From a virus: a stretch of 56,248 nucleotides of DNA. This document shows positions 11,300-44,792 of this stretch, piece after piece; the stretch's first letter is position 1; every line of letters starts with the position of its first letter. Below the pieces are notes generated by a model, which saw only the letters and a program-made list of their open reading frames with translations, did no database searches and was not told the DNA's origin. The stretch is taken from positions 1 through 56,248 of IMG/VR virus record IMGVR_UViG_3300027917_000053; one strand, 5' to 3'. Position numbers and translations under genes: made by a program.

Positions 11300-11318
11300 A
11301 ATAGGATTTTAGAAAAAT

Positions 11319-11969: not shown

Positions 11970-11983
11970 AGGAGGAGAATTAA

Positions 11984-21163: not shown

Positions 21164-22906
21164 TTACTCTCTATTATAAAAAGAAAGAATGTCGACCCAA
21201 CCTTGATAAGCCTCTGGGGTGTTTTTAATGTTATCTCTTATGTTGGAATTAGTTACTTCCGCTAAGAAATGAGGGGTATTAAAATTCATAATTTCTTGGA
21301 AACTAGCCATACTCTCATAATTTTGTTCAATCTCTAAGACTGGGTCATATTTTCGTACATAGGCACAAAAACTATAAGCTAAAGCTAAGTCATCCCTACA
21401 ATCTTTATCTCCCTCAACTCTTCCATTTGGTTTTTCTACTAATCCTATCAATTCAGTTACTAATCGACTTGATTTAATAGTTTCAGGAAAACCGCTTACA
21501 TATGAGTATAAACCATCGATAACTAAAGGTCGAGTCATCGAATCTATGTTAAGACCAGGGGTAACTTTTCCTTTTCTATTTTCAGCATAAACCATTGAAG
21601 CGACATCTGACCGAGATAAAGTCTCCATTACTTGATTTCCAACACTATTTCTTTCTATAACTATAGTTCCTCGATATAGTGATGCTGCGGTCATAACTAC
21701 TTTACAAAAATCAGTTACTGGTAACTTTCCTTGGTATTCCCAGACTTGAGTAAAAGTTCTATAATCCAACACGACTATAGCACTTTTGTCTTCTCCAAAC
21801 TCAGTCGCTGTGTCAACTCCTATAATATAGTGATTCCCCACAATGGGTAAATAATATTGCCATGCTTCACCGTTAAAGATTTTCATTATTTCAATAGGTT
21901 TATTTTTTCTAGCATTATCTTGAAGAGCCAAACAAGTTGCCTCATTAAAGAAACTACCCCCAGAAGGTAAGAATTTTAACTCTAATTCTTGTTCTATCTT
22001 TTTTAAGTCATTTCCAAATAATTCACATTGATTTCTATACCAAAGGGGATCTTTAGAGATTTCATCAACATCTTTCCAGTGAATGATATAAGGGTTAAAT
22101 ATATCAGTTCCAGAGATCGAAGATTGATAACGAGAATAATACCATTTACCCACACCAGTAGTTTTATTTGGAGTTGATAGAACCACAGTTGCATAAGGAA
22201 CGTTTGCTTTTCTAGCTTGCATTTGATTAGTAGATAAAGCGGGGACTATACCTGTGTATGCTTCATCAATATGGTTGACAAAAGCTGCTTCATCGATGAT
22301 TAAAACAGTTACTGCCTTCCCCCTCAAAGTCTTTTCTGGATTATTTGGGTTAACGGTACAAGCATGACATTTACATCCATTTTCCAAGATAAAACTTTGC
22401 TCAGTCTTTTTCTTAAACTTTGGACGAATCCAAGGGGGTAAATTATCAATCATAGTTATTACACATCTATTAAAATCAGTTGCTTCAGAGGCATTCTTAG
22501 AGATAATCCCTACTACCACATTTTTATAGAAAATACATAACCAAACTATAAACGCCTGGATAACTGTGGTGATACCTATTTGTCGGGACTTAAGAACTAA
22601 AACATACTTTTTATCTTGTACTGTTTTTATTAATTCTAACTGGGGTTTATAGGGGTTCATTAAAGTATTACCACCGGGAAGTTCCAAGTATACAAAATTC
22701 TTACAAAAGTATTCAAAATCTTCTTTAGCTTGAAAGTATTTTCTTAGTCTTTCTTCATCTTTATCAGCTAAAATTTCCTCTATTTCTTCAACTTCATTTT
22801 CTTCTAATTCAAGTTCGCCCAGAACTATCTGTGCTTCTGGTTCTTCGGAATAAAAGGTTTCTTCTGTAAGAAACTCATCACATTCCATTATTCTCATATC
22901 ACCCAT
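21164..22906 (-). CDS. terL: Terminase large subunit
   Basis: Encodes 580 residues. ATPase part: Walker A-like KSRQIGIT (about 106-113), Walker B VLIIDEA (about 201-207) and the coupling STPN motif (about 244-247). Nuclease part: GVDTATEFGEDKSAIVVLDY supplies the first acidic residue, and the later RDDLALAYSF the last. This is the motor that cuts and pumps concatemeric DNA into the prohead. An acidic N-terminal extension (about 1-55) precedes the ATPase domain. GGGG ribosome site before ATG. Confidence 0.95.
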   Translation of the reverse strand: MGDMRIMECDEFLTEETFYSEEPEAQIVLGELELEENEVEEIEEILADKDEERLRKYFQAKEDFEYFCKNFVYLELPGGNTLMNPYKPQLELIKTVQDKKYVLVLKSRQIGITTVIQAFIVWLCIFYKNVVVGIISKNASEATDFNRCVITMIDNLPPWIRPKFKKKTEQSFILENGCKCHACTVNPNNPEKTLRGKAVTVLIIDEAAFVNHIDEAYTGIVPALSTNQMQARKANVPYATVVLSTPNKTTGVGKWYYSRYQSSISGTDIFNPYIIHWKDVDEISKDPLWYRNQCELFGNDLKKIEQELELKFLPSGGSFFNEATCLALQDNARKNKPIEIMKIFNGEAWQYYLPIVGNHYIIGVDTATEFGEDKSAIVVLDYRTFTQVWEYQGKLPVTDFCKVVMTAASLYRGTIVIERNSVGNQVMETLSRSDVASMVYAENRKGKVTPGLNIDSMTRPLVIDGLYSYVSGFPETIKSSRLVTELIGLVEKPNGRVEGDKDCRDDLALAYSFCAYVRKYDPVLEIEQNYESMASFQEIMNFNTPHFLAEVTNSNIRDNIKNTPEAYQGWVDILSFYNRE

Positions 22907-24290: not shown

Positions 24291-24923
24291 CTAGGGTCTA
24301 CTGGCAATTATCTTTAAATACGGCCTATAGTCAAGATAAGTCGAATTTCTCCCTACAGATGTTATTTCTTTTATTTGCCAGTATCCCTCAAACTCCAGGT
24401 AATATTTAGCAAGGTTTTCCGTCCAGATACTTCCATGAGGATCGTACGGTTCATTACAGAATTCCGTAGTTATTTCTAGAAGTCTATTTAAGAAATCTTT
24501 ATTGATTTCTCCCACGGGTAAAACCTTATCTAAACCAATGAGGGTTTCAGCATAGTACCTATGATCAGGCACGAGGATTTCTAAAATCCCGTCCTTCTTA
24601 CATGAATTATGAAGCAAGTAAATAAAGGAAATTAGGTCTTTAAGAGGAACATGTTCCATGTAACGACTACATGTAATTTTGTCCACTTTAAACCTAAATG
24701 AGTCGAGAAAGTCAACCGCCTTACTTGAGCAAAAGAATACGAATCCCTCAGTAAAAGGTTTCACATTACTTACTGCTTTCATAAGATGGTTTTCTATCTC
24801 TGCGATTGAGCTACAGGATTTAACCGAGTAGGAACAATCAACATTAACCAGGAAATGGGAATCAGGAAGTTCAGTTTTATCAAAAGGAACTTTTCCCGAC
24901 CCAATATTCAATTCTAGATGCAT
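24291..24923 (-). CDS. Class I SAM-dependent methyltransferase-like
   Basis: Encodes 210 residues. LNIGSGKVPFD is the SAM-binding loop (motif I) and NVDCSY follows as the acidic strand. RYMEHVPLKDLISF with the later KKDGILEILVPDH matches the EHI...LKPGG...VPD pattern of type-11 methyltransferases. The substrate is not evident; DNA, RNA, protein or sugar are all possible. The gene stands alone, followed by its own terminator (24238-24263), and is separated from the upstream genes by the 25.2-25.4 kb repeat array. Confidence 0.72.
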   Translation of the reverse strand: MHLELNIGSGKVPFDKTELPDSHFLVNVDCSYSVKSCSSIAEIENHLMKAVSNVKPFTEGFVFFCSSKAVDFLDSFRFKVDKITCSRYMEHVPLKDLISFIYLLHNSCKKDGILEILVPDHRYYAETLIGLDKVLPVGEINKDFLNRLLEITTEFCNEPYDPHGSIWTENLAKYYLEFEGYWQIKEITSVGRNSTYLDYRPYLKIIASRP

Positions 24924-25178
24924 GTTTCCTCCCTTATTCTAAAAGTTAATTAAAAGAAAACTCTAAGTAAAACAACTAGAACTACTCCTCTGTTAGGATT
25001 AATATTATCATGAGTGATATCCTTGTTATTGGGTTTTTCCTTTATTTACTATAATCTATAAGTTATAGTACTATACGTTTTAACACCCCATATCTTTATT
25101 AGTATGGAGTAAAATTCTATTCGGCTAGTAAGCAACTGATAGAATTTTTTATATTTGGTTACTTAGCTTAACTCAAAC
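24924..25178 (-). other. Non-coding gap with one hairpin
   Basis: No gene seen. AAATTCTAT (25112-25120) and ATAGAATTT (25139-25147) form a 9-pair hairpin that could end transcripts leaving the repeat array. A possible motif copy (TGGTTACT near 25156) lies just outside the regular cadence. The rest is AT-rich and contains the promoter/leader of the methyltransferase gene (TCCTCC ribosome site complement before 24923). Confidence 0.4.
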
Positions 25179-25442
25179 GGTTTTCTTCGGGCATATTATA
25201 CATTCCATTACGGTGGGTTTCTGAAAGTCAATGATACGTTTGTTTCCAGTGGGTTTCTATGGATGAATGATACATTCTATTTGTATGGTTTTTTCATAGT
25301 ACGACGTGATACATTAAGATAAAGTGGTTTTCTTCCTTAGAATGATACATTTTGAACTCGACGGTTTTCTAAAGCTCATTGATGCATTATTTTTTAGTGG
25401 TTTTCTAGGATGGTAAGATACGCTGTGTTCGAGTGGGTTTCT
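25179..25442. repeat. Alternating 18-nt array, GATACATT type
   Basis: GGTTTTCT/GGGTTTCT and GATACATT-like 8-mers alternate. Their starts are at 25179, 25197, 25215, 25233, 25251, 25269, 25287, 25308, 25326, 25344, 25363, 25381, 25399, 25417 and 25435: steps of 18 nt except for 21 and 19 once each. Spacers of 10 nt look unrelated. The last copy overlaps the stop codon of the 25441 gene. It is a sister of the main array at 29.2-35.5 kb, with GATACATT replacing GATAAACT. Confidence 0.9.
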
Positions 25443-26310
25443 ATACCCTTTCCAGAATATTTTTTTCTAACTCATCGTCTACTACACTGACATTAAGATC
25501 AATTTCCTTAGAATTCAGAGGATACATGTTTTCAGGAATCAGTTTAGATATTTTATCTTTTTCTACTAGCAGCATCCGATTTATAACATTTATTGTCTTC
25601 TGAGGGGGGTATATGAGTGATTTGCTTCCGGGTTTGGGGTCACATAATAAAAATACCCTTTCGTTTTGTGAGAACTCCATTGGTAATAACAACTCTACTC
25701 CACGTATTTTGCAACATAAAGTTGCTAAAAGTTTAACTGAAATGTTGGGAATCACCTCAACATAGGGAGAGTTAATACTTTGTAATATTATTGTAGAATT
25801 GTCCTCCTTTTCAGGACCATATTTTGGAACCTTTCCAGTTGTTTCTATGCTATGTTTTAAAAATGAATAGTGTTCGTCCAGTGATGTGTTAATATCTTTA
25901 GCATATTTTTCAAACTCTTCATCTATCTTTACCTCATAAAATAATCCATTCTCTGTCCTTCTTAAATTTGAGGTTCCCTCTTTTAAGTTAAAAGAAACCT
26001 CATTTTGTTTATGACCATAAAAGGGATTGTTAACTATCAACTTTTTTAGTATCTCTGGTGTCTTAGAGACTAAAATTTTGTCTATGATTAGCGACATTTT
26101 CATCGGAAATTGTGTTTCATCTCGAAATATCGAATTTTGACATAATTTAAATATCCAAACCTGTTCATTCTCAGAATCTTGATTGGAGCAATAAATAATC
26201 CTGGCACTAAATTTAATTCCGTTTATGACTAAATCTAAGATCGAGTAGACATACGGAATCCCCTCTCTTATTTTACAACAACTACTATGGACTAGTCCTA
26301 ATTTAATCAT
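25441..26310 (-). CDS. Hypothetical protein, possibly two copies of a small domain
   Basis: Encodes 289 residues; AAGGAG ribosome site. The C-terminal third (IRGVELLLPMEF, INVINRMLL, DLNVSVVDD) resembles the next two genes, and the N-terminal third (VINGIKFSARI, MKMSLIIDKIL, NEVSFNLKEG) looks like a diverged second copy. Function unknown. The similarity was judged by eye and is weak, but three adjacent genes with the same closing strand make a local family likely. Confidence 0.65.
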   Translation of the reverse strand: MIKLGLVHSSCCKIREGIPYVYSILDLVINGIKFSARIIYCSNQDSENEQVWIFKLCQNSIFRDETQFPMKMSLIIDKILVSKTPEILKKLIVNNPFYGHKQNEVSFNLKEGTSNLRRTENGLFYEVKIDEEFEKYAKDINTSLDEHYSFLKHSIETTGKVPKYGPEKEDNSTIILQSINSPYVEVIPNISVKLLATLCCKIRGVELLLPMEFSQNERVFLLCDPKPGSKSLIYPPQKTINVINRMLLVEKDKISKLIPENMYPLNSKEIDLNVSVVDDELEKNILERV

Positions 26311-26420
26311 ATCTTACTCTCCTTAAAAGTATATCCCAAGAAAAACCAATTTACTTTTTTGGGTTAACTCTTCTATTTTTGGAAACATTTTACTTGCAAC
26401 GGGTTTCTTAGAAATTATGA

Positions 26421-26741
26421 TTAACTATCAGAAATAGTTACGTTAACATCCTTTCTTTCTGATAATTGGAATACTTTAGGTAAATCTTTTACTATTCCTG
26501 GACTTATCTCTCTAAGTGTGTCATTTATTGAAGCCATTATTGGTTTCCACTTAGTATTAGAATAATTAATACCTTCCCTCATACACTCCACGGGGTTAGT
26601 TTCAAAATATCCAAATATGTTTATTAAAGGAATACTAAAATGACTTCCGTCGACTATGATTTTTAACCTACCTTTAACTATCGCTTTCCCTCCATAATCA
26701 ATACTTACAAATATGTTCTCAAAATACTCGATTTTAACCAT
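26421..26741 (-). CDS. Small paralog of the 25441 gene family
   Basis: Encodes 106 residues. It has a VDGSHFSIPLI strand pair, an IMASINDTL helix and a final DVNVTISDS strand, shared in outline with the flanking genes. AAAGGAA ribosome site. A single GGGTTTCT-N10-GATTAACT repeat unit (26401-26426) overlaps its stop codon, so the repeat element also reaches this cluster. Function unknown. Confidence 0.65.
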   Translation of the reverse strand: MVKIEYFENIFVSIDYGGKAIVKGRLKIIVDGSHFSIPLINIFGYFETNPVECMREGINYSNTKWKPIMASINDTLREISPGIVKDLPKVFQLSERKDVNVTISDS

Positions 26742-26743
26742 AT

Positions 26744-27136
26744 TTAGAATTCCTTTTCTTTATCTTCGCCTGTGTAAACAGTTATAGCATTCGAAACATT
26801 CATTTTTTCTATATCAATAGAGTTAACATGAAAGAACCTCGGAATACTCTGTAAACAAATCCAATTACATAATTTAAGCCATTTATTAATGCTATCAATC
26901 ACCTCCTGAGGCATTTTATTTATAAATCCAAAATTAGGATCATCGTCGGGAATAAGGGGATTAATTACTAAAACGCTTCCTGCTGAAACTAGAGGGAAAA
27001 TTCTTTCATCCCCGTCCACTGTGGTTCTCAGGAAAGCATAAAGATGACAATTATAAAATGGATCAGTTGGAGCTCTTCCATTAACCTGTGTTAGCATAAG
27101 TCGAATATGTGAAAGTTCTTTTACTTTGACCTCCAT
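26744..27136 (-). CDS. Small paralog of the 25441 gene family
   Basis: Encodes 130 residues. Contains VDGDERIFPLV, a VIDSINKWL helix and a closing SNAITVYTGED strand, aligning in outline with the 26421 gene. The gene pair is separated by two bases, so they are co-translated. No catalytic motif is visible. Confidence 0.65.
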   Translation of the reverse strand: MEVKVKELSHIRLMLTQVNGRAPTDPFYNCHLYAFLRTTVDGDERIFPLVSAGSVLVINPLIPDDDPNFGFINKMPQEVIDSINKWLKLCNWICLQSIPRFFHVNSIDIEKMNVSNAITVYTGEDKEKEF

Positions 27137-27150
27137 TTTAACCTCCCATT

Positions 27151-27558
27151 TTAATAAGACATGAAAATTAACGGGTGCTTATTTCCATCAATTCCTACTT
27201 TCTGAAGTTCGGATAAAACATACATCTTAAATTCGTGAAAAGTTTGATCATCTTTCATTTCATCAGTGCTTACACCAATCCTAATTCTATTTGGAAATAG
27301 ATGAAATTTAAGCTTTCTTTCTCTAAATCTATGATGCTTCCATTCGATTAGATGATAAATATTTCTGGAACTTTTTAAGAACTTATCTCTGTTGACTATA
27401 TTAGTTCGTAAACTAAAATACTCAGACGATATTTTTTTGGTGAACATAAGTGTCTTGAGTGCTTTTATAACATCTGGATATCTCCAAGGACTAACTATGT
27501 ATATCCCAAAAATAACTGATGAAGTACCATAATATACATCTTTTTCATATCCTGTCAT
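27151..27558 (-). CDS. IGV/QTxxEF-family small protein
   Basis: The start chosen is ATG 27558 behind a clear AAGGAGG site, not the longer frame that would overlap the upstream gene. Encodes 135 residues. The C-terminal unit IRIGVSTDEMKDDQTFHEFKMYV (given here as one motif region), followed by LSELQKVGI, defines a family shared with the next four genes and with the 43.0-44.8 kb cluster. N-terminal half is variable. Function unknown. Confidence 0.7.
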   Translation of the reverse strand: MTGYEKDVYYGTSSVIFGIYIVSPWRYPDVIKALKTLMFTKKISSEYFSLRTNIVNRDKFLKSSRNIYHLIEWKHHRFRERKLKFHLFPNRIRIGVSTDEMKDDQTFHEFKMYVLSELQKVGIDGNKHPLIFMSY

Positions 27559-27577
27559 TTTAACTACCTCCTTAAAA

Positions 27578-27916
27578 CTATGTAAAAAATACCATTCTAA
27601 ACCCTTCGGTATCAATTCCAAAATCTTCTAGTTGTGAACGAACATAACTATCAAATTCCTTAAGTGTTTGGTCTCCTTTCATTTCTTTCACATTGACTCC
27701 AATTTTCATATTTTTAACATATAACATGATAGTTAATTTTCCACGGGTCATTTTTATTTTAGGTTCGGAAATGAGTTTTCTCATTTTATAGTATAAATTT
27801 TCTTTTATTTCAGGAAACTCAGATAGGAGTAATTCTTTTATTTTTGGTATTAAGTATTCGAATGTATAGATGTCAGTAAAACTAATACCACAATAAGTAA
27901 CTTCAGGTATTCCCAT
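27578..27916 (-). CDS. IGV/QTxxEF-family small protein
   Basis: The start chosen is ATG 27916 (AAAGG site 7 nt before); a TTG upstream at 27931 has no site. Encodes 112 residues: N-terminal TYCGISFTDIY, a basic middle strand, then MKIGVNVKEMKGDQTLKEF and QLEDFGI, ending in VFFT like the 28311 gene. It is the sister of that gene. Confidence 0.72.
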   Translation of the reverse strand: MGIPEVTYCGISFTDIYTFEYLIPKIKELLLSEFPEIKENLYYKMRKLISEPKIKMTRGKLTIMLYVKNMKIGVNVKEMKGDQTLKEFDSYVRSQLEDFGIDTEGFRMVFFT

Positions 27917-27933
27917 TTTTCTACCTTTCAATT

Positions 27934-28287
27934 TTAATAACCATTTACGTATATTGCCATATCATCTCTTGAGAATTTGGGTTCTGTTATCTTTCCTAAT
28001 TCTGAGATAACGTAATCTTTGAACTCATTCAGTGGGGTATTTGGATTTTTCATTCCAATCCCGATATAGACTTTTTTTACAAATACTTCAAAGTTTAAGT
28101 TTTTATGAGTTAAACTTATATAAGATAATTTTTTACGTGACTGAAAACGTATCCCACTTTTATATTCCGTCCTTGGAAGGAATGAGTCTAATCTAAGAAG
28201 ATATAGTATATAAATAAAGTCACGTATTTCTTTATATTCGTTTATATTATCTATAACTACTCCCACTTTAGCATTATAACACCACAT
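27934..28287 (-). CDS. IGV/QTxxEF-family small protein
   Basis: Encodes 117 residues. N-terminal VGVVIDNINEYKEIRDFIY, then a basic strand NLNFEVFVKKVYIGIG, then TPLNEFKDYVISELGKI. It is closest to the 28666 gene (same N-terminal layout). Alternation of the two subtypes along the cluster suggests duplication of a gene pair. Ribosome site is weak, a G-run well upstream. Confidence 0.7.
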   Translation of the reverse strand: MWCYNAKVGVVIDNINEYKEIRDFIYILYLLRLDSFLPRTEYKSGIRFQSRKKLSYISLTHKNLNFEVFVKKVYIGIGMKNPNTPLNEFKDYVISELGKITEPKFSRDDMAIYVNGY

Positions 28288-28310
28288 CTTTTAAAGACCC
28301 CCCCTTTTTT

Positions 28311-28652
28311 CTATGTAAAGAAAACCAAATGTCTTTTTACTTTAATTTTGATCTTAAATAATTCTTCAGTAACAATTCTTTCAAAGTCAAGAAGAGATTG
28401 ATTATTTTTCATTTTATCTACATTGACTCCAATTTTTATATTCCTACTGAATATTATATAAGTTAACATTCCTTTAGTTATAACTATTTTATTGAGAGGA
28501 ATAAGACCTCTTATTTCTTGATACTCCAATCCAAATCCTACTAATCGTGAGAACTTAGCTTCAAGTAAATCTTTTATTATAGGCAATAATTTCTTATAGC
28601 TATAAATATCATAAAAGTATACTCCACAGTAAACTTCTTTGGTTTTCTTCAC
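28311..28652 (-). CDS. IGV/QTxxEF-family small protein
   Basis: Encodes 113 residues from a GTG start with a GGGGGA site. N-terminal VYCGVYFYDIYSYKKLL, then IKIGVNVDKMKNNQSLLDF and a closing HLVFFT. Sister of the 27578 gene. The QTxxEF motif has become QSLLDF. Function unknown. Confidence 0.7.
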   Translation of the reverse strand: MKKTKEVYCGVYFYDIYSYKKLLPIIKDLLEAKFSRLVGFGLEYQEIRGLIPLNKIVITKGMLTYIIFSRNIKIGVNVDKMKNNQSLLDFERIVTEELFKIKIKVKRHLVFFT

Positions 28653-28665
28653 TTTTCCCCCTTTT

Positions 28666-29019
28666 CTAAAATAGTCGACTGGTATATAAAATCATATCCT
28701 TCTTTTTAAATCCAGTAAAACCAAGATCTTTTAATTCTTTAATGACAAAGGATTTAAAGTCTTTTAGAGGAACATTGTTTCTTTCTACTTCAGTCCCTAC
28801 GTAAAGTCTTTTTACATAAATCTCAAAGACTAAATTTTTATAAGGAGTTCGAATGTAATTAAATTTACTGCATTTTTCCACATATAAATTATTCTTATTG
28901 GCTATTCTATGTCGACTAATAGCTTTTTTATTAAGATATAAACAATATACAAATTCCCTTAGTTCTTTATGCTTAGATGCGTCTACTACTATTCCTACAA
29001 ATAGTTTATCATTCCACAT
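28666..29019 (-). CDS. IGV/QTxxEF-family small protein
   Basis: Start ATG 29019 with GGGGAGG 6 nt upstream, inside the end of the previous gene, so translation is coupled. Encodes 117 residues, the same length as its sister at 27934: VGIVVDASKHKELREFVYCLYL, then YVKRLYVGTEV and VPLKDFKSFVIKELKDLGF. Function unknown. Confidence 0.72.
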   Translation of the reverse strand: MWNDKLFVGIVVDASKHKELREFVYCLYLNKKAISRHRIANKNNLYVEKCSKFNYIRTPYKNLVFEIYVKRLYVGTEVERNNVPLKDFKSFVIKELKDLGFTGFKKKDMILYTSRLF

Positions 29020-29227
29020 CTTTTTCCTCCCCTTTATATCCTTCACAGTTAACCGGTTTCTGAGGAATAAAACCCTCAGAAGTCCTTTTATCAATATACT
29101 CTTTTGCTTTCTTATTAAACTTCATACAATGATAACCTTCACCTCCGAAAGTTAGATATCTACATCTTTCTTTTTCAGAGTAAAGTTTACATATATTTTC
29201 TAGTTGCTCTTTTGGTAAAAGTGACAT
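29009..29227 (-). CDS. Small Cys-containing protein
   Basis: Encodes 72 residues; AGGAG site. Cysteines in ICKLYSEKERCRYL, YHCMKF and VNCEGY suggest a small metal-binding fold, similar in style to short regulatory proteins. It is the first gene of the 25.4-29.2 kb - strand cluster, immediately next to the large repeat array. No family recognised. Confidence 0.6.
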   Translation of the reverse strand: MSLLPKEQLENICKLYSEKERCRYLTFGGEGYHCMKFNKKAKEYIDKRTSEGFIPQKPVNCEGYKGEEKDVE

Positions 29228-29242
29228 AATTGGACTCCTGAG

Positions 29243-30545
29243 GGCTTAAACTAACAATTGGTGGGGTTCTCTAAGGTGTTGGTAAACTTCTTGATCCTGG
29301 GTTTCTAAATGAATAAGATAATCTGTCTCGAAATGGGTTTCTCCGTATTCACGAAAAACTATATATTGATGGGTTTCTAATGAATATTGGTAAACTATAT
29401 CGGTACGAGTTATTAGTAATTCTGATAAACTTAAAGAAGATGGGTTTCTTAATTCTAATGATAAACTCTTTCCTGGCGGATTTTTACTTTTGTTTGGAAA
29501 ATGTTTTGGATTTGGGTTTCTATGGAATCGTGATAAATTATATGGGCGAAGGGTTTCTGTTATACCATGATAAACTTATACATTTAGGATTTCTGCGATG
29601 TAGAGGTAAACTAGCTCGGGGAGGATTTCTTCCTACCGCGGGTAAACTCATAATTAATGGGGTTCTAAATTAGAGTGGTAAACTTTTCTCATCTGAGTTA
29701 AGTTTGATTACTTGAAAAACTAGATTTTCATGGGTTACTAGCAGTACCTGATTACTATGTTCCAATGGGTTACTTAGAAATCAAGATAAACTTTCATTAA
29801 TGGGGTTTCTATTTATATATGCTAAACTAATTATTTATGGGTTTCTCTCACGAGGGGTTTCTAATATCTCTTTAGAAAAACTCGCAGATTGTGGGGTTTT
29901 TGTCAATTATGATAATTTGTCCTTAAGAGGGTTTCTTGGATTTTTCGGAAAACTCAATACCATTGGGTTTATTTCGAATTATGAAAATCTATTACTAATC
30001 GGGTTAAATTCTTTGGATAGGATAACTAGTCCAATGAGGGTTTCTTTCCAATTATGGTAAACTATGCAGATTGTGGGTTTCTAATCTTTCCTGGTAAACT
30101 ATGCAGATTGTGGGTTTCTTTTCAAATATGGTAAACTATTTTGTCATGGGTTTCTTACTCTTATCGGAAAACTAATCTCACATGGGTTTCTAGGATTTCC
30201 AGGTAAACTATTTTACTTAGGGTTCAGTTTTTAGTCTAGGAAAACTATATTTCTAAGACTTCTCCTTTAGCCAGATCACTGAGTAGTAAACTATTTTGTA
30301 ATGGGTTTCTTCTCCTTTATGATAAAAACTTATCATATTTGGATTACTATGAAATAGTGAAAAACTGTTTACGAATGGGTTACTTGATATTTTAGATAAT
30401 CTTTATAATTTTGGATTACTATTATTTATTGAAAAACTATTTAGGAGTGGGTTACTTGATATTCCAGATAATCTAAATTAACTAGGGTTTTATACGATGG
30501 TAATGAAAAATTTGCGATTTTAGGGTTTCTTAATATATAGGCTAT
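29243..30545. repeat. Main alternating 18-nt array, block 1
   Basis: GGGTTTCT-like and GRTAAACT-like 8-mers alternate with 10-nt spacers. At the left end eight consecutive motifs start at 29281, 29299, 29317, 29335, 29353, 29371, 29389 and 29407, exactly 18 nt apart; occasional steps of 17 or 19 occur later. Spacers are not conserved, except where a unit was recently duplicated (30056-30082 and 30093-30119 share an identical 11-nt spacer). Short open frames with a 12-residue period arise here only because 36 is a multiple of 3. No gene was recognised. Confidence 0.95.
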
Positions 30546-30889
30546 TCGTCGACTATAATATAAAGGTCGTATAAATATCTCCAACTCAAACTATCATATA
30601 TTTGGTTGAAGTTTATGCTATTCTTAGACTTTGCTAAATAAGCACAATAATAATGTGATACTTTACTAGTCAACATATATTTTCTCATAGTTTAACTAGA
30701 TTCTCTTGGGTTAAAATATTAAATGGAGGTAGTCTAAATATCTCTTTGGTGTTTTATGATGTGCGTAAAGTTTTCTTACATAGATAGAGTATTTCTCAGA
30801 AGCGTCAACTTCATGCGATTTTAAGAAATATAATGAATGTTTATGATATGATAAATAATGAAGAAAAACTATATCGTACATTTCTTTTT
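30546..30889. other. Non-coding gap inside array without clear repeats
   Basis: About 345 AT-rich bases with only scattered partial motifs (for example GGGTTAAA near 30710). No coding frame with a ribosome site, no tRNA and no strong hairpin seen. It may be an old array segment that decayed or the functional core of the region (promoter or origin). Confidence 0.5.
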
Positions 30890-32712
30890 CTCATTGGGTT
30901 TCTAGAAGTATTTAAAATAATCTTTATGTCAATGGGTTTCTCACACCTCCAGTAATTCTAGTTATAATACATCATTTATTTAGTTAACTAATATTAGGGG
31001 GGTTTCTAGGAAGTTTAGATATACATTACATTATTGTATTACTAAGAAATTATGGTAAACTCGTGGGTTTTCTGGGTTAAATAACTTGACTAGATACATT
31101 AAAAATTTTAGGGTTTCTTTTCTGCCAAGATAAACTAGTCCGAGTAAGGGTTACTATATATCTTGTGAAAAATAACTCACCTCCTTTAGGATTTCTAGAT
31201 GTACATGATAAACTAATCTCCTCTGGGTTACTTAAAAGATGTGATAATCTCTATTAATTAGGGTTTCTACGAAGTAATGAAAAACTAGGTTGGTCGTGGG
31301 TTAAATATTTCCCAATGATAAACTGCATCAGTTTGGATTACTCTTGCAGCACGGGTAAACTCTTGCTTATTGGATTTCTCGGCTTCAAAGATAAACTTAA
31401 ACGGAGTGGGTTAGTATAAATTAATTAGAAAAAATATCATCTTCTGGGTTTCTCCTGCCATAATGTTAAACTTTACTCTTTCGGAGTTACTATTCACAAT
31501 GGGTTAACTTACACTCACTGGGTTACTTATACATAGTGGTTAACTTACACTCACTGGGTTACTTTATAGTTGTGGTAAACTTACGCTACATGGGTTACTC
31601 TGTACATATGGTAAACTCGATAATTAAGGGTTTCTAATCTAAAAAGATAAACTTATGTTTTAAAAGTTAAATCTAAATCAAAGGTTAAATTTTAAGTATG
31701 TGGGTTTCTTCTCCTTTATAATAAACTTTAACATATTGGGTTAAATTAGAGCCCATGGTAAACTTCAGATACAAGGCTAATGGGTTAACTTTCCCCCTTC
31801 TGGGTTACTAGCTTTATGTGGTTAACTTCTCCATCATGGATTACTGACTTTTAAAGATAAACTTCGGTATTTCGAGTTGAATATAAATATGAGGTAAACT
31901 CTCTCGTTCTGGGTTATTGACCTTCCAGAGTAAACTTTAGAATGCTGAGTTAAATAATCAATATCAGTGATAAACTATCTGTCCTTGGATTTCTTTGTAG
32001 AAATGATAAAATCTTTGATTCTGGATTTCTATGCCTTATAGATAAAAACTATATTTCTATGGGTTTCTGATTTTTTTAGATAAACTTTTTCTCCTCGGGT
32101 TACTTAAAAATGTAAGATAAATTTATTCTCTCTGGGTTATTTAAGTGATTTAGATAAACTCTTCCTCCTCGGGTTACTATAGCGTGATAGTAATCTTATC
32201 CAATTCGGGTTTCTTTGGAGGGTTGGAAATCTCTTGGCCTGTGAGTTAATTTTCCTTAGTGAAAAACTTAAAACCGGTGGGTTACTCGCCGTTTTTGTTA
32301 AATAAACTATAAAATAGTGTACTAATTTGTTCTAAAGGTAAACTTTAGGTGTCTGGGTTATTTGGTGTATATGATATATAAATTTATCAAATTTACCAGA
32401 TTTGGGTTTCTTAATTTCAATGATAAACTCTATTAATTAGGGTTTCTACGAAGTTCTGGTAATCTCCTCCACCCGGGATTACTTACGACTTCAGGAAAAA
32501 ACTCAATTATTCAAGGGTTAATTTCGCTATTCGATAAACTCAGCTGTTCAGGATTACTTGCGGTTTAAGATAAACTCATCGTATCTGGTTTGAGTCCTTT
32601 TTCTAGGAAAACTCTCTTTGAATGGGGTTAAATATATAATCTTGATAACTTTATATAATTGGGTTTCTTATCGCAATGGGTAATCTTCTATGAGAGAGGG
32701 TTAATAAGTAGT
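30890..32712. repeat. Main alternating 18-nt array, block 2
   Basis: The same pattern with more GGGTTACT forms and partners GATAAACT, GGTAAACT, GATAATCT and GGAAATCT. Recent duplications are visible, such as GGTTAACTTACACTCACT at 31502 and again about 37 nt later. No open frame of credible coding character. Together with the other blocks the array occupies roughly 4.3 kb, so on the order of 200 half-sites (estimated from length divided by 18). Confidence 0.93.
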
Positions 32713-33032
32713 ATTGAAAATTAACAACGCATTTTACTTGTGTATACATTAAGTCTATCAAAAGTAGAATGTATAAAACTTGAATATGAGTGAAACCAAG
32801 AATGGTGTTTCCATCCAGTCATAATTAAATATATTATGTACTCTTTTTCAAGACTCATAATAATTCCTTAAAGTTTAGATATATCAAGATGAATTTCTCC
32901 AAAATACATTGCTCGACATGAATAATACCAATTGTTCTTAAATCGGGATAAATAACCAATATAATAAATAATCATGTCCATTATATTATCTGATTCGGTT
33001 TGGGTTAGTTGATTTCCATAGAAAACTTAAAG
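32713..33032. other. AT-rich non-repeat segment beside tRNA
   Basis: 320 bases with no gene and no clear repeat motif apart from GGGTTAGT at the right end. It is downstream of the - strand tRNA and may hold its terminator, although none is obvious. Contains GTATACATT and AATGTATA, which echo the GATACATT form of the sister array; this may be chance. Confidence 0.4.
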
Positions 33033-33105
33033 TGACACCGTAGGGATTCGAACCCTAATGACCGACTAGAAAGGCCGGTATCCTAAACCATTAGATGACG
33101 GTGCC
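33033..33105 (-). tRNA. tRNA-Glu (UUC)
   Basis: A full cloverleaf: acceptor GGCACCG with CGGTGTC (one G-U), a 3-pair D stem, anticodon stem CCGGC/GTCGG around loop CTTTCTA (anticodon TTC), 4-nt variable loop, T stem TAGGG/CCCTA with loop TTCGAAT, and discriminator A. No CCA is encoded, so host enzymes must add it. Position 37 is T where tRNA-Glu normally has A. It stands alone within the repeat array. Confidence 0.93.
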
Positions 33106-33124
33106 ATAAAATAGTATGTTCTAA

Positions 33125-33358
33125 AAACTAGTAAGGTAAACTTTACTCTTTAAGGGTTACTTCCCCTAATCGGTAAACTTTCTTTTTCGGGGTTACTTCA
33201 TTTTACGGGTAAACTTGCCTGTTTTGAGTTAATTAGGGATTGATGACAATCTTGTTTAACTAGAGTTAATTATAACTTATGAAAATTTTACGAAGTGTGG
33301 GTTACTTTCACTTTACGAAAATCTTATTACTCCTGAGTTAATGCTCATGAAGGGAAAT
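33125..33358. repeat. Main array, block 3
   Basis: Motifs at 33135, 33154, 33172, 33190, 33208 and 33226 (steps 19, 18, 18, 18, 18), with GGTAAACT alternating with GGGTTACT/GAGTTAAT, continue through GAAAATCT forms up to the stop codon of the 33359 gene. The array therefore resumes on the other side of the tRNA. Confidence 0.93.
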
Positions 33359-33940
33359 CTAATTCTTTGAAGAAGAACTTGGATTTTCCTCTTCCTTGGT
33401 TTCATGAATGATTAAAGGTTCGCTTCCAGGATATTGATCTTGTATAAAAGATTTTACTCCACCAATCATTTTTTTCATATCGTCCCTAAATCCTTCACTT
33501 TTTTTAGTCCAAGGAAGACCTTCGGCTTTACATGATAGATATTCTCCAATATCATACATGCAGTCGACTTTTCGTCCTTCTTCGATTTTTTCCAAAAGAG
33601 TTTTAAATTGTTCTTCTGTAAAAACTCCTTCCTTATGTAGGTTGGTAACAAATTTTTGAACTATGTCGAAAGATGAATCACCGTGACTCCATTCATAATT
33701 ATAAGAAAATCCTGGTCCTAAAGCAGACATATTTCCCATTTTTTCATTACATCCAAGATACCAAATAACTAAATCTCCAGGAATAAGATTCCCTGCCTCA
33801 TCAAAGGCATGTCCACAATCGGATATAAGAAAATTAAATAATTGGTCTCCTGTGGTTTCTTGAGCAATCATATCTTGAGGAAATGTATCGGTATAGATTT
33901 TAGCATAAATATCTACAGATATCACTGTTTTATTGTTCAT
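33359..33940 (-). CDS. Hypothetical protein inside repeat region
   Basis: Encodes 193 residues; strong GGAGG site before ATG. It has a beta-rich start, a mid segment DLVIWYLGCNEKMGN, a helical second half and a Ser-rich acidic tail (ENPSSSSKN). No family recognised. Overlaps the upstream gene by 11 bases, so the pair is co-translated. As one of the few genes in the array, it is a candidate binding partner for the repeat, by position only. Confidence 0.65.
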   Translation of the reverse strand: MNNKTVISVDIYAKIYTDTFPQDMIAQETTGDQLFNFLISDCGHAFDEAGNLIPGDLVIWYLGCNEKMGNMSALGPGFSYNYEWSHGDSSFDIVQKFVTNLHKEGVFTEEQFKTLLEKIEEGRKVDCMYDIGEYLSCKAEGLPWTKKSEGFRDDMKKMIGGVKSFIQDQYPGSEPLIIHETKEEENPSSSSKN

Positions 33941-34169
33941 CAGAATCCTCCGAAAGTATACTTTTTGAGACAGTAAAGCGAGCTAATCCTTTAAGAGCAG
34001 GATTTTTTAGCATTTCTTCTAATTCCCTTTGTTTTTGCTCTTGCTCAGCAAGATATTTCTTTTTCTCCTCTTTGGTCATTTGTTGAAATAATCTTTCTTC
34101 TTCTTCCAGTTTTTCGGTAATGTCTTTCAGTAAATCGTCAAAACGCATAGCTTTAACTCTCTCGACCAT
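33930..34169 (-). CDS. Small coiled-coil protein inside repeat region
   Basis: Encodes 79 residues, dominated by Glu/Lys/Gln heptads (about 10-55: DITEKLEEEERLF then EEKKKYLAEQEQKQRELEEML). This predicts a coiled coil or long helix, likely a dimer. It precedes and overlaps the 33359 gene. A helical small protein beside an iteron-like array could be an adaptor, but no DNA-binding motif is visible. Confidence 0.6.
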   Translation of the reverse strand: MVERVKAMRFDDLLKDITEKLEEEERLFQQMTKEEKKKYLAEQEQKQRELEEMLKNPALKGLARFTVSKSILSEDSDEQ

Positions 34170-34189
34170 TTTTTATACCTCATATTTAT

Positions 34190-34615
34190 GGGTTAGTATA
34201 ATATTATCTATTTCTACAAGGGTTACTAAGCATCATTGAAAAACTCTTTTAAGAAGGATTTCTACCTTTTAGTGATAAACTTTTTTACGGTGGATTACTT
34301 ATCGAAATTGATACATTCACCTGGGAAAGGGTTACTTTATCCAATTGATAAACTAGATATGGGTGGGTTACTATTTATTCCTGATAAACTTCACTTTTCT
34401 GGGTTACTTATATTTGAAAGATAAACTAAACTATTATGGAGTTATAAAATAATTAGTTTTGGTTAACTTAGATCTTGTGAGTTAATTGGAGGCGATGGAT
34501 AAACTTTTCCATATAGGATTTCTTTACTCAAATGATACTCTAAATAGAAGTGGGTTACTTTGCGTATAGGGAAAATCTACAGTTGAATGGGTTACTACCC
34601 GTTTTGGGAAAAATA
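34190..34615. repeat. Main array, block 4
   Basis: Alternating GGGTTACT/GGATTTCT and GATAAACT/GGAAAATC motifs fill the gap between two genes; the last motifs start at 34589 and 34607 and the next gene's stop codon begins at 34616. Frame-by-frame reading gives a GLLxxxDKLxxx pattern that is a by-product of the 36-nt period. Confidence 0.92.
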
Positions 34616-34969
34616 TTAACACTGTCCACCAGGGCCAGTTGCTTTATGTAATTCTTTTTCTGTCTTTTCCCACGCTTTTAAGTCAATCATATCAGTGACA
34701 TCATACATTTGATCACTATACCAAACATAGCAATGCTTACATTTAGTACATACATTCACGCAGAGTGAATCAGTAGTGATATGCTGGGTTTTGTCTGCTT
34801 TAAGATAGGGCATAACAGATTCAAGATACCCAGCGTGACGAAAATGGACATTCCCACATTCTGGACATCGAAAAAGGAATAACTCTTCTGCAGTTATCTT
34901 TTTCGGTTTAACTTTGTCTTTAAAACAATTAGGTATACTTACTTCTTTCCCTTCTTCCTTTTTGTCCAC
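34616..34969 (-). CDS. Zinc-ribbon-like small protein
   Basis: Encodes 117 residues from a GTG start (GGAG site). CPECGNVHFRH (about 35) and CTKCKHCYVWY (about 94-104) form two knuckles of a likely zinc ribbon. Such folds often bind nucleic acid or act as small regulatory subunits. It ends in GPGGQC. The gene is flanked on both sides by repeat array. Confidence 0.65.
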   Translation of the reverse strand: MDKKEEGKEVSIPNCFKDKVKPKKITAEELFLFRCPECGNVHFRHAGYLESVMPYLKADKTQHITTDSLCVNVCTKCKHCYVWYSDQMYDVTDMIDLKAWEKTEKELHKATGPGGQC

Positions 34970-35006
34970 CTTTAAACTCCTTTTTTAAAGTTATCTGTTA
35001 TCTTTA

Positions 35007-35481
35007 GGGTTTCTGTCAATGATTGGAAATCTTCTCGTTCATGGTTTACTACGGAATCATGAAACTTTATTTTGTTATGGGTTACTACTTTCAATTGAAA
35101 AATTTGTTATAAATGAGTTTATTCACTCACTCAGAAATCTTCTCTTGTAAGGGCTAATACACATATCTATGGAAATAATGGATTATTTATTTTCAAAGAA
35201 AATCTATATTTCGTAGGGTTACTGTTCGTATAAGGAAATCTCTATAACTATGGATTAATGCACAAACAAGAAAAAATCTTTTTTTCCAGAGGGTTACTTT
35301 CCGTATAGGGAAAATCTGTATAACGATGGGTTAATGCACAAACAAGAAAAAATCTATTTTGCAGTGGGTTTCTTACTCATAGTGAAAAACTATTAACATA
35401 CGGGTTAAGTTGTTATAATAAGGAAATCTTACATCCTTTGAATTTCTATTTTTCTGGGTTACTCGACATAGAAGAAAATTA
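35007..35481. repeat. Main array, block 5 (end of array)
   Basis: The array continues with many GAAAATCT and GGATTAAT variants and stops at 35474-35481, eight bases before the hairpin at 35490. Two units around 35230-35290 and 35301-35355 are near-identical and 72 nt apart, a recent duplication of two periods. Confidence 0.92.
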
Positions 35482-35489
35482 TAAAAATA

Positions 35490-35558
35490 GGAGGCTCTTT
35501 TGATATAAAATGATCCCGTTGTCTTAGGGAATACTACTTTCATACTAAAAGAGCCTCC
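35490..35558 (-). terminator. Strong hairpin terminator at edge of array
   Basis: GGAGGCTCTTTT (35490-35501) is perfectly complementary to AAAAGAGCCTCC (35547-35558), with a 45-nt loop that holds a smaller CCC/GGG stem. In the - direction it follows the 35602 gene by 43 bases and is followed by TATTTTTAT. It appears to stop transcription of the accessory genes before the array. Confidence 0.7.
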
Positions 35559-35601
35559 ACAGAAAGATAAAAAGTCATTAACTTTTTACCAAGGGGCCAA
35601 A

Positions 35602-36036
35602 TTAAGATCTGCTATGTTTATACTGTTTTCTGTCTGCTGGTTGCTGATTTTGTGGTTTTTCAGCATTATTTAACTCAACAGTAATATCAAACATAACAGG
35701 GACTGGAAGTTGAGAAACCCAAATAGTACTTGGAATTAACTCGGTATAGACGAAATCTTTTCCTTCCAAAAGTTCATTAATCCTTTTATAAACTATTTCA
35801 GGAAGGTCTTTTGATTCCTGATATTTTCGAACTTTCGTCATCTCCTCTTTATCAACCTTGAGATACTTCCCTCCATCTGAGCAAACAGGTAAGCGGTATT
35901 CTTTTTCATCCATTCGGATTCGAACTTCTCCATATAAAGTCCCTGTTACTAAAATATCACGATGACTATTATCGTTTTTATCAACATTCAAAAAAAGATC
36001 ACTCAAAGATAAAACTTCGATTGATTTAGTAGACAT
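35602..36036 (-). CDS. Hypothetical protein
   Basis: Encodes 144 residues, AGGAGG site. It shows beta strands (RDILVTGTLYGEVRIRM), a LPVCSDGGKYLKV segment, a helical centre and a basic, Gln-rich tail. No family recognised. It is the last gene of its transcript before the terminator at 35490-35558. Confidence 0.6.
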   Translation of the reverse strand: MSTKSIEVLSLSDLFLNVDKNDNSHRDILVTGTLYGEVRIRMDEKEYRLPVCSDGGKYLKVDKEEMTKVRKYQESKDLPEIVYKRINELLEGKDFVYTELIPSTIWVSQLPVPVMFDITVELNNAEKPQNQQPADRKQYKHSRS

Positions 36037-36069
36037 ATATGTCCTCCTTCGTTACGAACACCTTGAATG

Positions 36070-36795
36070 TTATGAGTATTCTATGAGTATAGAATCAGTG
36101 AATGGTTTTAAATAATGATCAAAATACCATTCCTTATCTATATCGGTGATCTTTAGTAATCTTACAGTTCCTTCCTTTATATTGACGAAACCGTGTCTTA
36201 CTAAACATACATCGTAAGATTTAGAGTCTTTTGTAGGAATACAAAAAACTCTGATTTTCTCACATTCAAAGAGTTCTTTCTTTATAAAATCTAACTTCTT
36301 AAATATTGCTATTTTACTTAAGAAGTTGATTTCTGCTAATTTTTGATAGAAATTATTTATGCCTTCATATCGTCTAGAAATTCCTTTAACTAAAACCTCG
36401 TCTGAACCACTTTTAATAGCTAAATAGAAATCTCTTCCTGGAGATATTATCAAATCTCGGTATTTAGTACATTTCATTATATCAATCACAGTTCCGAGTT
36501 TTCTAGTAACTATAAAACCATCAAATTGTCTTGTTATTAACTCCTCCTCTTTTTTAACATTATTTTGAGTTAAACACTGGTCAATTATATTTATAACCAT
36601 TGATCTAAGAATCTTAGTCAAATTGGGGTTTTCCCTCTGTAAAAGTCCTATAGCAATGTTTCTTTGTTCCTTTTCCAATGGGATATTACTTACATCATAA
36701 CCTAAAGATATAAGCATATTGTAATTACATTTCTCTATATCATAATTGTATACATCCTTTAAGCAAAGTTTACAGTTTTTATTTATTTCCATCAT
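36070..36795 (-). CDS. Hypothetical protein; C-terminus weakly like family B DNA polymerase thumb
   Basis: Encodes 241 residues. N-terminal CKLCLKD is Cys-containing. The latter part reads FYLAIKSGSDEVLVKGISRR and ends DIDKEWYFDHYLKPFTDSIL. That resembles the strand plus thumb segment and final helix of family B DNA polymerases (YALxxxGKxxxKG... and DYxYYxxxxLxPxLxxIL). No polymerase catalytic motif (DxxSLYP, DTD) is present, so if related it is only a fragment or a separate subunit. Overlaps the next gene by 4 bases. Confidence 0.45.
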   Translation of the reverse strand: MMEINKNCKLCLKDVYNYDIEKCNYNMLISLGYDVSNIPLEKEQRNIAIGLLQRENPNLTKILRSMVINIIDQCLTQNNVKKEEELITRQFDGFIVTRKLGTVIDIMKCTKYRDLIISPGRDFYLAIKSGSDEVLVKGISRRYEGINNFYQKLAEINFLSKIAIFKKLDFIKKELFECEKIRVFCIPTKDSKSYDVCLVRHGFVNIKEGTVRLLKITDIDKEWYFDHYLKPFTDSILIEYS

Positions 36796-40461: not shown

Positions 40462-41463
40462 TTAGGTAAAATCGAATGGACAATTAGATGGATTTTTACT
40501 CAATAAATTCCTTGCTTTTAAAAACGGGGGAGCATTTTTCCAAACTTCAACCATACTTCTTTTACTTATATCAACTCCCCACTCATCGTGATCAGCAAAT
40601 GAACAAGGCATAAATTTCAAGTCTGGACTTATATAAGCAGACTTCCTTCCTGCTTCACAAGTGTCTAAAAAAACTTGCTCTTTCTTAGTAAAATTTAACT
40701 TTAAAGACATAATTTTATTTACTAAACATGAGTCCATTCCCAACTTAAAAGGACTCTTAGATTCTCTCAAACCAGCAAGGAAAAGTTTTATCTTATCATC
40801 ACTTGGAACTAGGTGAATAAGATTTTTTCCTCTTCCTTGGGGTTTGAAAAGAAGAAAAATAACTGCGTTAAGTTTATCTCGGTTAACTTTTTTATTCCAG
40901 ACGTCTTCACCTTTAGCAATTTGTATACACTTGTCAACTGATTCTGAAGTTACTACTATATGTATATTAGTTTTCATTTCATATGACTGAAGTAACTTAA
41001 TTGCTTCAAAAGTGAAATCTTTACTATAATCAGAAACCGCTACCGCTCCACAAAATTCCTTCGCAATCTCAACTTTTTCCTTAGTTAATTTTCTCCCGCT
41101 TGTAGTGAAATTAGGAACTACTTCGTTTTCCCTACAATAAGAAACTATTTCTTTATAATGTTCATGGAGTTCTGGATCTCCCCTCCCTCCAAGAGCACAT
41201 TGGTTTACGAGTTTTTTAGTCTCATTTATAATTCTTTTAAAACCATCCAAAGTCATATTTGGTTGGTCTTTATCTCCTTGATAACATATAGAGCATTTAT
41301 TTTCACAATGACCCATTATTCCAATATCTAGCATACATGGAAAATAGAGACTAAATGGGTCTTCATGACCATTTATTCCTGAAGTTATTTCCATCCCAGT
41401 TTCAGTATCGAATAGAATGATATAGTTTTTATTTGCTATAGTTTTTATCATTTTATTTTTCAT
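40462..41463 (-). CDS. Radical SAM protein with SPASM-like C-terminus
   Basis: Encodes 333 residues. CENKCSICYQ is the CxxxCxxC iron-sulfur site (about 53-60), and a GGRGDPELH segment fits the SAM-binding GGE-type region. The C-terminal Cys residues (DTCEAGRKSAYI, FMPCSF and NCPFDF) resemble a SPASM/twitch auxiliary cluster. Such enzymes often modify peptides. Its partner genes are two small proteins directly upstream. The start is uncertain between ATG 41463 and an internal ATG at 41451. It is not a QueE type. Confidence 0.8.
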   Translation of the reverse strand: MKNKMIKTIANKNYIILFDTETGMEITSGINGHEDPFSLYFPCMLDIGIMGHCENKCSICYQGDKDQPNMTLDGFKRIINETKKLVNQCALGGRGDPELHEHYKEIVSYCRENEVVPNFTTSGRKLTKEKVEIAKEFCGAVAVSDYSKDFTFEAIKLLQSYEMKTNIHIVVTSESVDKCIQIAKGEDVWNKKVNRDKLNAVIFLLFKPQGRGKNLIHLVPSDDKIKLFLAGLRESKSPFKLGMDSCLVNKIMSLKLNFTKKEQVFLDTCEAGRKSAYISPDLKFMPCSFADHDEWGVDISKRSMVEVWKNAPPFLKARNLLSKNPSNCPFDFT

Positions 41464-43025: not shown

Positions 43026-43448
43026 CTATCCAGTATTGACTTCAGTTGAATGACATTCCAGTGTTCCTTCAAACGGGGTATGTAAAAATAACTCAGCGGT
43101 TTTCTTTTTAAATTCACCAAAGGTTTCGTCTTCTCTCATATTCCAAGGAGATCTTCCAATAAATACCGAACTCATTCCCCCCGAAACTATACAATCAAAA
43201 CCTAAAGTGTTACAATAATTATGTAAAGCCATTTCAGAAAGTTCATAATCTTTACAAAATTCAGAAAACCCTTTGAATTTAATAAGATACCCCTCTCCTT
43301 CAATGCGTACTCTAAAAGCAATAGAATATAAATATATGAATTTCATTATCTCAGAATTCTCAAATATTTTCTCATCTGCGATAACCATACCATAAGCGCA
43401 AAAAACTTCAGTTGAACTATTTGTTATAAAAGAAACTTTTACAAACAT
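43026..43448 (-). CDS. NSSS-motif and IGxxPW-family protein
   Basis: Encodes 140 residues; GGAG site. The start MFVKVSFITNSSTEVFCAYG carries the FxTNSS-type N-terminus found in many uncharacterised bacterial and phage proteins. The C-terminal FIGRSPWNMREDETFGEF is the same unit as in the 27-29 kb family. So the cluster combines a short N-terminal motif with the shared C-terminal domain. Function unknown. Confidence 0.7.
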   Translation of the reverse strand: MFVKVSFITNSSTEVFCAYGMVIADEKIFENSEIMKFIYLYSIAFRVRIEGEGYLIKFKGFSEFCKDYELSEMALHNYCNTLGFDCIVSGGMSSVFIGRSPWNMREDETFGEFKKKTAELFLHTPFEGTLECHSTEVNTG

Positions 43449-43449
43449 T

Positions 43450-43905
43450 TTAATACTCCACTCTTTCGTCTATAGCATATGGTTTTACAGTTATTCCTAA
43501 GAGACTTTTTAACTTTTTCTGGACTTTATCTCTAAATTCTACTCCCGTTTCATCATTCCCTATTTTAAAAGGATTCATCCCAATAAAGATCTCTCCATAA
43601 GTATTTACGATACTTTCCATCCCAAAAATAGCACGAATCATCGATTCTGTTGAATTTATAAGTACTGAATTATGACCTTTAGTATTATCTAAAAGATCAT
43701 TCATAGAAACAAAATCAGAACCTTTCCATGATCCATCGGTCTGAGGAAATTTTCCTACTTCCCGATATGGAGAGCATAAATAATACACATATACTAAGAT
43801 ATGGATATTATTCATTAGTAAGAAGTTACTAAATTTTACTTCAATACCATATACACAAAAGTTAGTGGAAGAACTATTAGTTACAAAATCAAGTTTAGTT
43901 TTCAT
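43450..43905 (-). CDS. NSSS-motif and IGxxPF-family protein
   Basis: Encodes 151 residues: DFVTNSSSTNFCVYG at the N-terminus, an extended middle, and EIFIGMNPFKIGNDETGVEF near the C-terminus. Start overlaps the previous stop by 11 bases. Same domain layout as the flanking genes; unknown function. Confidence 0.7.
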   Translation of the reverse strand: MKTKLDFVTNSSSTNFCVYGIEVKFSNFLLMNNIHILVYVYYLCSPYREVGKFPQTDGSWKGSDFVSMNDLLDNTKGHNSVLINSTESMIRAIFGMESIVNTYGEIFIGMNPFKIGNDETGVEFRDKVQKKLKSLLGITVKPYAIDERVEY

Positions 43906-44317
43906 AATAACTCACCAATTCACCGATCTCTTTAAACTCGAAATCAGAATTTAACACTTCTTTTATTGAATCATAAACTCTTAACCGAAATTCCTTTCCT
44001 GTTTCATTATCCCCAATATCGAATGGACTCACTCCTATATAAACCATCATATTACTATACTCTGAAAAAAGATCATATTTAAGTTTTAGAAGCGACTTTA
44101 TTCCAATCACCATATTTCTCCTATTTGTAGGACATGTGAAAGTTTCTTTAGAAGGAAAGTCGACTCCTGTTCTCCTAGAAGTATAAGAAAAACGAAAATC
44201 TCTTAGAGGAATGAGAGGATTTACTATATAAGAAATATAAACAAAATCGTCCATATTTTCTATTTCTAAAAACTTTTGAATATCTATTTTAGTTCCAAGA
44301 ATAATAACAGCTTTCAT
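43895..44317 (-). CDS. IGxxPF-family protein lacking NSSS motif
   Basis: Encodes 140 residues. It keeps VYIGVSPFDIGDNETGKEF and a closing region with LVSYYEN but its N-terminus (MKAVIILGTKIDIQKFL) has no NSSS motif. AGGAGG is 14-15 nt before the ATG, a long spacing. It is therefore the same family with a replaced or decayed N-terminus. Confidence 0.65.
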   Translation of the reverse strand: MKAVIILGTKIDIQKFLEIENMDDFVYISYIVNPLIPLRDFRFSYTSRRTGVDFPSKETFTCPTNRRNMVIGIKSLLKLKYDLFSEYSNMMVYIGVSPFDIGDNETGKEFRLRVYDSIKEVLNSDFEFKEIGELVSYYEN

Positions 44318-44342
44318 TTCGTCGATGGTAATCCTCCTTTAT

Positions 44343-44792
44343 TTAATATCGAACAACTTCTTCAACTGCTCTTGGATGATAATCCCCAAAACCTATATCT
44401 TTCAAATCATCTCTAACATCACATTGAAATTCTCCGAGAGTTTGTGTTTTACACATAGACCAAGGAGATCTTCCTATAGCAATATAAACTGCTGCAGGTT
44501 CTTCTCCATACATTTCCCATAAAAAATGATTAATAACGGCATAATAACGAATAGTTTGAAAAAGATAACTTTCATATTCTTCAACGAATCTTTCTTTAGT
44601 AACAGGAAAATCAAATTCCAAAAGTCGATCATTACAGTAATCAGAAACTTCCCTCCAATAAGCAATTAAAACTAAATATAAGTATTTAATTAATTTTGAA
44701 TTTTCAACTAAATCTGTTAATTCTATATCCACCCCGTAAACACAGAATGCTTCGCTAGAACTATTTGTTATAAAATCAAGTTTTATTTTCAT
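44343..44792 (-). CDS. NSSS-motif and IGRSPW-family protein
   Basis: Encodes 149 residues: DFITNSSSEAFCVYGVDI, then YIAIGRSPWSMCKTQTLGEF and VRDDLKDIGFG. It is close to the 43026 gene in its C-terminal motif. AGGTGAGG site before ATG; the first bases overlap the end of the DUF932-like gene by 4, so it is coupled to it. Confidence 0.7.
   Translation of the reverse strand: MKIKLDFITNSSSEAFCVYGVDIELTDLVENSKLIKYLYLVLIAYWREVSDYCNDRLLEFDFPVTKERFVEEYESYLFQTIRYYAVINHFLWEMYGEEPAAVYIAIGRSPWSMCKTQTLGEFQCDVRDDLKDIGFGDYHPRAVEEVVRY

Follow-up and report, generated by a model that had tools for sequence, protein, structure and literature searches.

A very large putative TIGR guide array, dispersed in blocks, in a phage with a T4-type terminase

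Two short DNA motifs alternate about every 18 nt in a fragment of a viral genome, and the question is what kind of element they form. The window analysed here is the whole 56,248-nt stretch of the record IMGVR_UViG_3300027917_000053. An initial annotation, made from the letters alone, placed the array at 29243-35481, estimated about 200 half-sites, and considered a binding array for a filament or partition protein, origin iterons or a scaffold RNA. It knew of no described element with such a layout. That view no longer holds, as the tandem interspaced guide RNA (TIGR) arrays of a CRISPR-like guide system (Faure et al. 2025, PMC12045711) match it feature by feature. TIGR-Tas systems combine two alternating repeats of 8-12 nt, 9-nt spacers, 36-nt tigRNAs and a Nop-domain effector, and are found mostly in phages (PMC12045711). 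We consider it very probable that the window carries a very large TIGR array which, on the minus strand, would encode a guide precursor for Tas.

Anatomy of the repeat array

Over positions 29243-35481, autocorrelation is strongest at a distance of 36 nt (39% identity, z 5.7), with further peaks at 72 nt and, more weakly, at 18 nt. This period is confined to the array region; the rest of the window is without such autocorrelation. Decoding of the window with a path model yielded 244 half-sites, 119 of type A and 125 of type B, in eight blocks between 25.2 and 35.5 kb (Table 1). Shuffled sequence gave 15-18 scattered single matches and the opposite strand 19. The array is thus real and the initial count was of the right order, if low. 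Six of the blocks lie within the limits first assigned, and blocks 1 and 2 fall outside them.

On the plus strand, the half-site profiles read G-G-(G/A)-T-T-(T/A)-C-T for 8-mer A and G-(A/G)-T-A-A-(A)-C-T for 8-mer B. Two alternating repeats of 8-9 nt and unique spacers of 9 nt make up each 36-nt unit. The near-exact 18-nt rhythm noticed at the outset is borne out: most start-to-start steps between half-sites are exactly 18 nt (95 and 83 steps of 18; 32 of 19), and uneven spacing of 19-21 nt also occurs. There are about 120 tandem units overall, 102 of which are complete with both spacers. The spacers measure 9 nt in 177 of 220 cases (range 8-12, with the flanking T counted as repeat), and 216 of the 220 are distinct. 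Individual blocks have their own repeat variants, and two gaps (30531-30862 and 32706-32983) hold no half-sites.

Read on the minus strand, the repeats are AGTTTACCA (AGTTTA(T/C)CA) and AGAAACCCA (AG(A/T)AACCCA). Their GTTT and AAAC cores had been taken for inverted copies. In direct orientation the two repeats have five of nine letters in common (AG at the start, CCA at the end) but only three of nine in inverted orientation, so that the inverted look is limited to the TTT/AAA cores. The AG...CCA ends are near-perfect on both repeats of the related phage G003 (see below) and form the majority in the window. Such a direct match of repeat ends is as expected for an RNA held by a symmetric dimer. 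Covariation analysis, proposed earlier for the GTTT/AAAC cores, gave no pairing signal inside the repeats; the strongest link, between edge positions 2 and 4, mainly reflects the variant of the 25.2-kb block. An Rfam search returned tRNA only, with no match in the array, and a scan for sigma-70 promoters was not above chance.

The proposal that selection acts on DNA or RNA, not on protein, is upheld. A protein-coding repeat gene in a 36-nt (12-codon) frame is hardly conceivable: short open frames of 97 and 86 aa do run in phase with the period, but the frame is lost at steps of 19, 37 and 38 nt, none of the blocks contains a long spanning ORF, and the spacers are unconstrained.

Small genes and a tRNA-Glu lie between the blocks. 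Beyond the last block, a stem with a long loop and a T-rich stretch is a possible terminator insulating the array from the upstream gene; it was not picked up by a terminator scan whose loop limit was 8. All the genes neighbouring the array are also on the minus strand. Small paralogous gene families of that strand occur at 27151-29094, at 43026-44792 and at 59-61 kb in the extension of the genome described below, one of them directly beside the array.

Table 1. Features of the array-bearing island (window coordinates)
Feature	Position	Strand	Basis or remark
Accessory island with all array blocks	24924..36069	.	between genes 24291-24923 and 36070-36795
TIGR array block 1, 15 half-sites, diverged edge repeat AATGTATCA	25179..25442	-	path model
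TIGR array block 2, 3 half-sites	26382..26426	-	path model
TIGR array block 3, 70 half-sites	29245..30530	-	autocorrelation and path model
TIGR array block 4, 91 half-sites	30863..32705	-	autocorrelation and path model
TIGR array block 5, short and weak, 3 half-sites, adjoins tRNA	32984..33027	-	path model
tRNA-Glu (TTC) between array blocks	33032..33105	-	ARAGORN; Rfam tRNA
TIGR array block 6, 13 half-sites	33135..33360	-	path model
Two small genes, 193 aa (33359-33940) and 79 aa (33930-34169), between blocks	33359..34169	-	no strong family match
TIGR array block 7, 23 half-sites	34202..34614	-	path model
117-aa gene between blocks	34616..34969	-	family matches sub-threshold only
TIGR array block 8, 26 half-sites, recent 76-nt duplication at 35199-35374	34989..35463	-	path model
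12-bp stem (GGAGGCTCTTTT/AAAAGAGCCTCC), long loop, then T-rich stretch on minus strand	35487..35560	-	sequence reading

Repeats shared with a tas-linked array

Viral contigs were scanned for three consecutive repeats. The scan returned G001, which is the same virus as that of the window, the related phage G003 (IMGVR_UViG_3300040801_001951) and two single chance matches. The tail sheath of G003 is 66% identical to that of the window over the 192 residues available. In this phage, the repeats AGTTTACCA and AGAAACCCA recur as 33 and 15 half-sites which flank a 355-aa gene on both sides. The gene product matches the NCBIfam model NF052498 (TIGR_Tas_endo; E=4e-36, 125 bits against a cut-off of 100), PHROG transposase 4285, and PDB 9mty (Transposase IS116/IS110/IS902 C-terminal domain protein) together with TasH entries; a Pfam search gave no match. 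Its structure was predicted from one sequence with a mean pLDDT of 32, which makes a structure search with the model meaningless. By sequence, the G003 locus is a complete TIGR-Tas locus as described (PMC12045711). Since the layout of the window array agrees feature by feature and the same repeats flank tas in G003, its identity as a TIGR array is well supported. We infer that the window virus, too, owns a complete system.

Single exact-pattern matches in other viral contigs showed no 36-nt period in the autocorrelation of each locus, except at two loci (L019 and L103); those in genome contigs were all single and were taken as chance. A DNA search of the array against phage records gave no match, and a search for Tas relatives among the viral contigs found G003 itself only.

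The nearest Tas among sequenced phages is encoded by the Microcystis phage Mvi-JY20 (PP438412.1), where it is annotated as a hypothetical protein. Downstream of this Tas gene, in the same orientation, comes an array built from ATGCGAGCC and ACGAAACCC with spacers of 9 nt, and next a terminator; the edge repeat stands at both the start and the end of this array. The phage is unrelated to that of the window, its array is short (about 9 units) and directly follows the Tas gene, and its edge repeat is GC-rich. However, the loop repeat ACGAAACCC nearly equals AGAAACCCA of the window. From this likeness, AGAAACCCA is taken as the loop repeat, AGTTTACCA as the edge repeat and the minus strand as the sense strand. 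Truncated edge repeats at the array ends and a terminator are visible by eye in both G003 and the Microcystis phage, whereas the block ends in the window are indistinct. The G003 array starts at AAAGGAGGT, a ribosome-binding site located after a conserved promoter region and pointing along tas; relatives carrying other cargo genes at that place have kept the promoter region. Because of the Mvi-JY20 locus and this conserved promoter, the window array is most likely transcribed on the minus strand. The Mvi-JY20 array is itself unannotated (L173 4616-4960, about 22093-22440 of PP438412.1), and an annotated 141-bp CDS spans it on the opposite strand.

An array of binding sites for a protein that forms filaments or acts in partition, or a set of origin iterons, would account for regular spacing in a long DNA array. 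We nevertheless judge this reading very improbable. Partition or origin iterons need identical direct or truly inverted sites and a linked DNA-binding protein, whereas the window repeats differ from each other and are related directly, not invertedly; they surround a Tas gene in G003; the ORFs that were scanned yielded no recognisable partition or tubulin-like protein; and close syntenic relatives are without the island. Among the roles initially suggested, a scaffold RNA comes nearest, although the RNA of a TIGR array is expected to be cut into guides.

By analogy with the published system, the TIGR array would be transcribed on the minus strand into a long precursor. Where the Nop-domain protein Tas is present, cleavage halfway through each edge repeat (AGTTTAYCA) would release tigRNAs of about 36 nt from the precursor, each comprising half an edge repeat, the 9-nt spacer A, the loop repeat (AGWAACCCA), the 9-nt spacer B and another half edge repeat. 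A Tas dimer would hold one tigRNA via the matching ends of both repeats, and spacers A and B would base-pair with a single 18-bp DNA target, one spacer on each strand.

The window thus has in common with TIGR-Tas (PMC12045711) its alternating short repeats, 9-nt unique spacers, 36-nt unit, matching repeat ends and phage host. The novel aspects are the size of the array, its division into blocks interspersed with genes and a tRNA, and the lack of a tas gene found locally. According to the published text, arrays most often have 5-15 units (PMC12045711); against this range, the roughly 120 units in eight blocks are roughly ten times the usual number, which is not a claim to the largest array known. 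As a yardstick of size, 380 Patescibacteria genomes were examined: 15 have Tas-like genes, with no dual-repeat arrays nearby, by a simple period scan that also fragments the array of the window itself. The box motifs of the window are AG...CCA in place of the UG...CCA of TasR arrays, and the extra edge-repeat base pair of TasR arrays showed no covariation in the window array. CRISPR arrays likewise comprise repeats with unique spacers and a presumed guide precursor; however, they have one repeat of 25-36 nt and spacers of similar size, and the initial distinction from CRISPR was correct. Archaeal box C/D sRNAs also hold two guides between paired motifs which, by published analogy, bind a Nop-domain dimer, but the window array is without kink-turn motifs and without an Rfam match.

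Probable growth of the array and search for targets

The description of TIGR arrays lists their origin, growth and targets among its open questions (PMC12045711). With about 120 units, repeat sub-families, internal duplications and diverged spacers, the window offers far more material than the usual 5-15 units. Tandem copies span 72 nt (30330-30474) and 76 nt (in block 8; Table 1). Identical spacers occur in neighbouring units, and there is an excess of spacer similarity at a distance of two units (3.4%, compared with 0.45% at long distance). All other spacers are at background similarity, while the repeats stay conserved. As far as its history can be read from sequence, these observations point to local duplication behind the growth of the array, which would expand at least in part by local tandem duplication followed by spacer drift. 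This suggested route needs no adaptation genes.

Spacer targets were searched in the virus itself and in about 1.8 Mb of other DNA, nearly all from phages, with a target geometry derived from published cleavage data (spacer A, then the reverse complement of spacer B, gap 0-2). None stood clearly above mispaired controls: true spacer pairs gave 1 perfect and 8 one-mismatch matches, mispaired ones 0 perfect and 2-5 one-mismatch, and order-swapped ones 0 and 6. The single perfect match is an AT-only 18-mer and is not convincing. The likeliest use would be for the phage to keep a stock of about 120 guides directed at competing mobile elements or at loci of the host; regulation is another candidate role. 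We tentatively propose, at somewhat low confidence, a dispersed bank of dual-spacer guides that sits in its own island away from tas, interspersed with small genes and a tRNA, and that grows through local tandem duplication and drift instead of through a spacer-capture machine.

The virus, its variable sites and the search for tas

Besides a T4-type terminase, baseplate and sheath genes, the window virus encodes beta and beta' subunits of an RNA polymerase of its own. G001 (IMGVR_UViG_3300001687_000029) adds a 14.7-kb extension to the readable genome, to about 71 kb; no further array blocks lie in this extension. The record remains a fragment, and the window begins inside the tail sheath gene.

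Homologues of the genes bordering the island are about 0-40 bp apart in three related phages (G002, G041 and G050) and 0.3-0.5 kb apart in two others (G019 and G052); G014 and G010 have other DNA at this place. By this comparison of sequences, the array blocks fill a variable insertion site which in related phages has no insert or holds other genes. The G003 system occupies another variable site, flanked by two structural genes; in relatives, this second site has other minus-strand genes or nothing. Across L176-L185, this cargo site, located between homologues of the G003 genes L168:6522-7316 and L168:3677-4354, has a conserved minus-strand promoter and then varying genes: a ParB-like protein, radical SAM and helicase-like proteins, possible regulators, or TIGR-Tas.

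Neither the family model nor sensitive searches based on the Tas sequences of G003 and the Microcystis phage found tas in the 71 kb of the virus, that is, in the window and the 14.7-kb extension. The same searches found none in the records of 50 relatives, including fragments of 207 and 186 kb. This could mean that the virus or its lineage lost tas and that the blocks are decaying guide DNA without function. The broken blocks, the two gaps, the diverged edge repeats of the 25.2-kb block and the 19-21-nt spacing agree with such a relic. We regard it as unlikely, however: most repeats are near consensus despite fully diverged spacers, and were therefore under selection until recently. Moreover, the missing tas is weak evidence, because the window begins inside the sheath gene and the tas gene of G003 lies about 1.2 kb upstream of its sheath gene. 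For a functional array, we assume that tas belongs to the unrecovered part of the genome. The window array also suggests that tas need not be encoded close to its guides, at least within 71 kb.

Several other genes of the window were noted. Bacterial-type RNA polymerase beta and beta' genes are located at 49138-54871 in this phage with a T4-type terminase. A radical SAM gene and folE2 (GTP cyclohydrolase), at 40462-41463 and 47962-48822, may suggest a deazaguanine or other modified-base pathway. Finally, positions 2033-12436 of the plus strand hold near-tandem related genes, most of 150-410 aa, with a common domain; this family is probably tail- or baseplate-associated.
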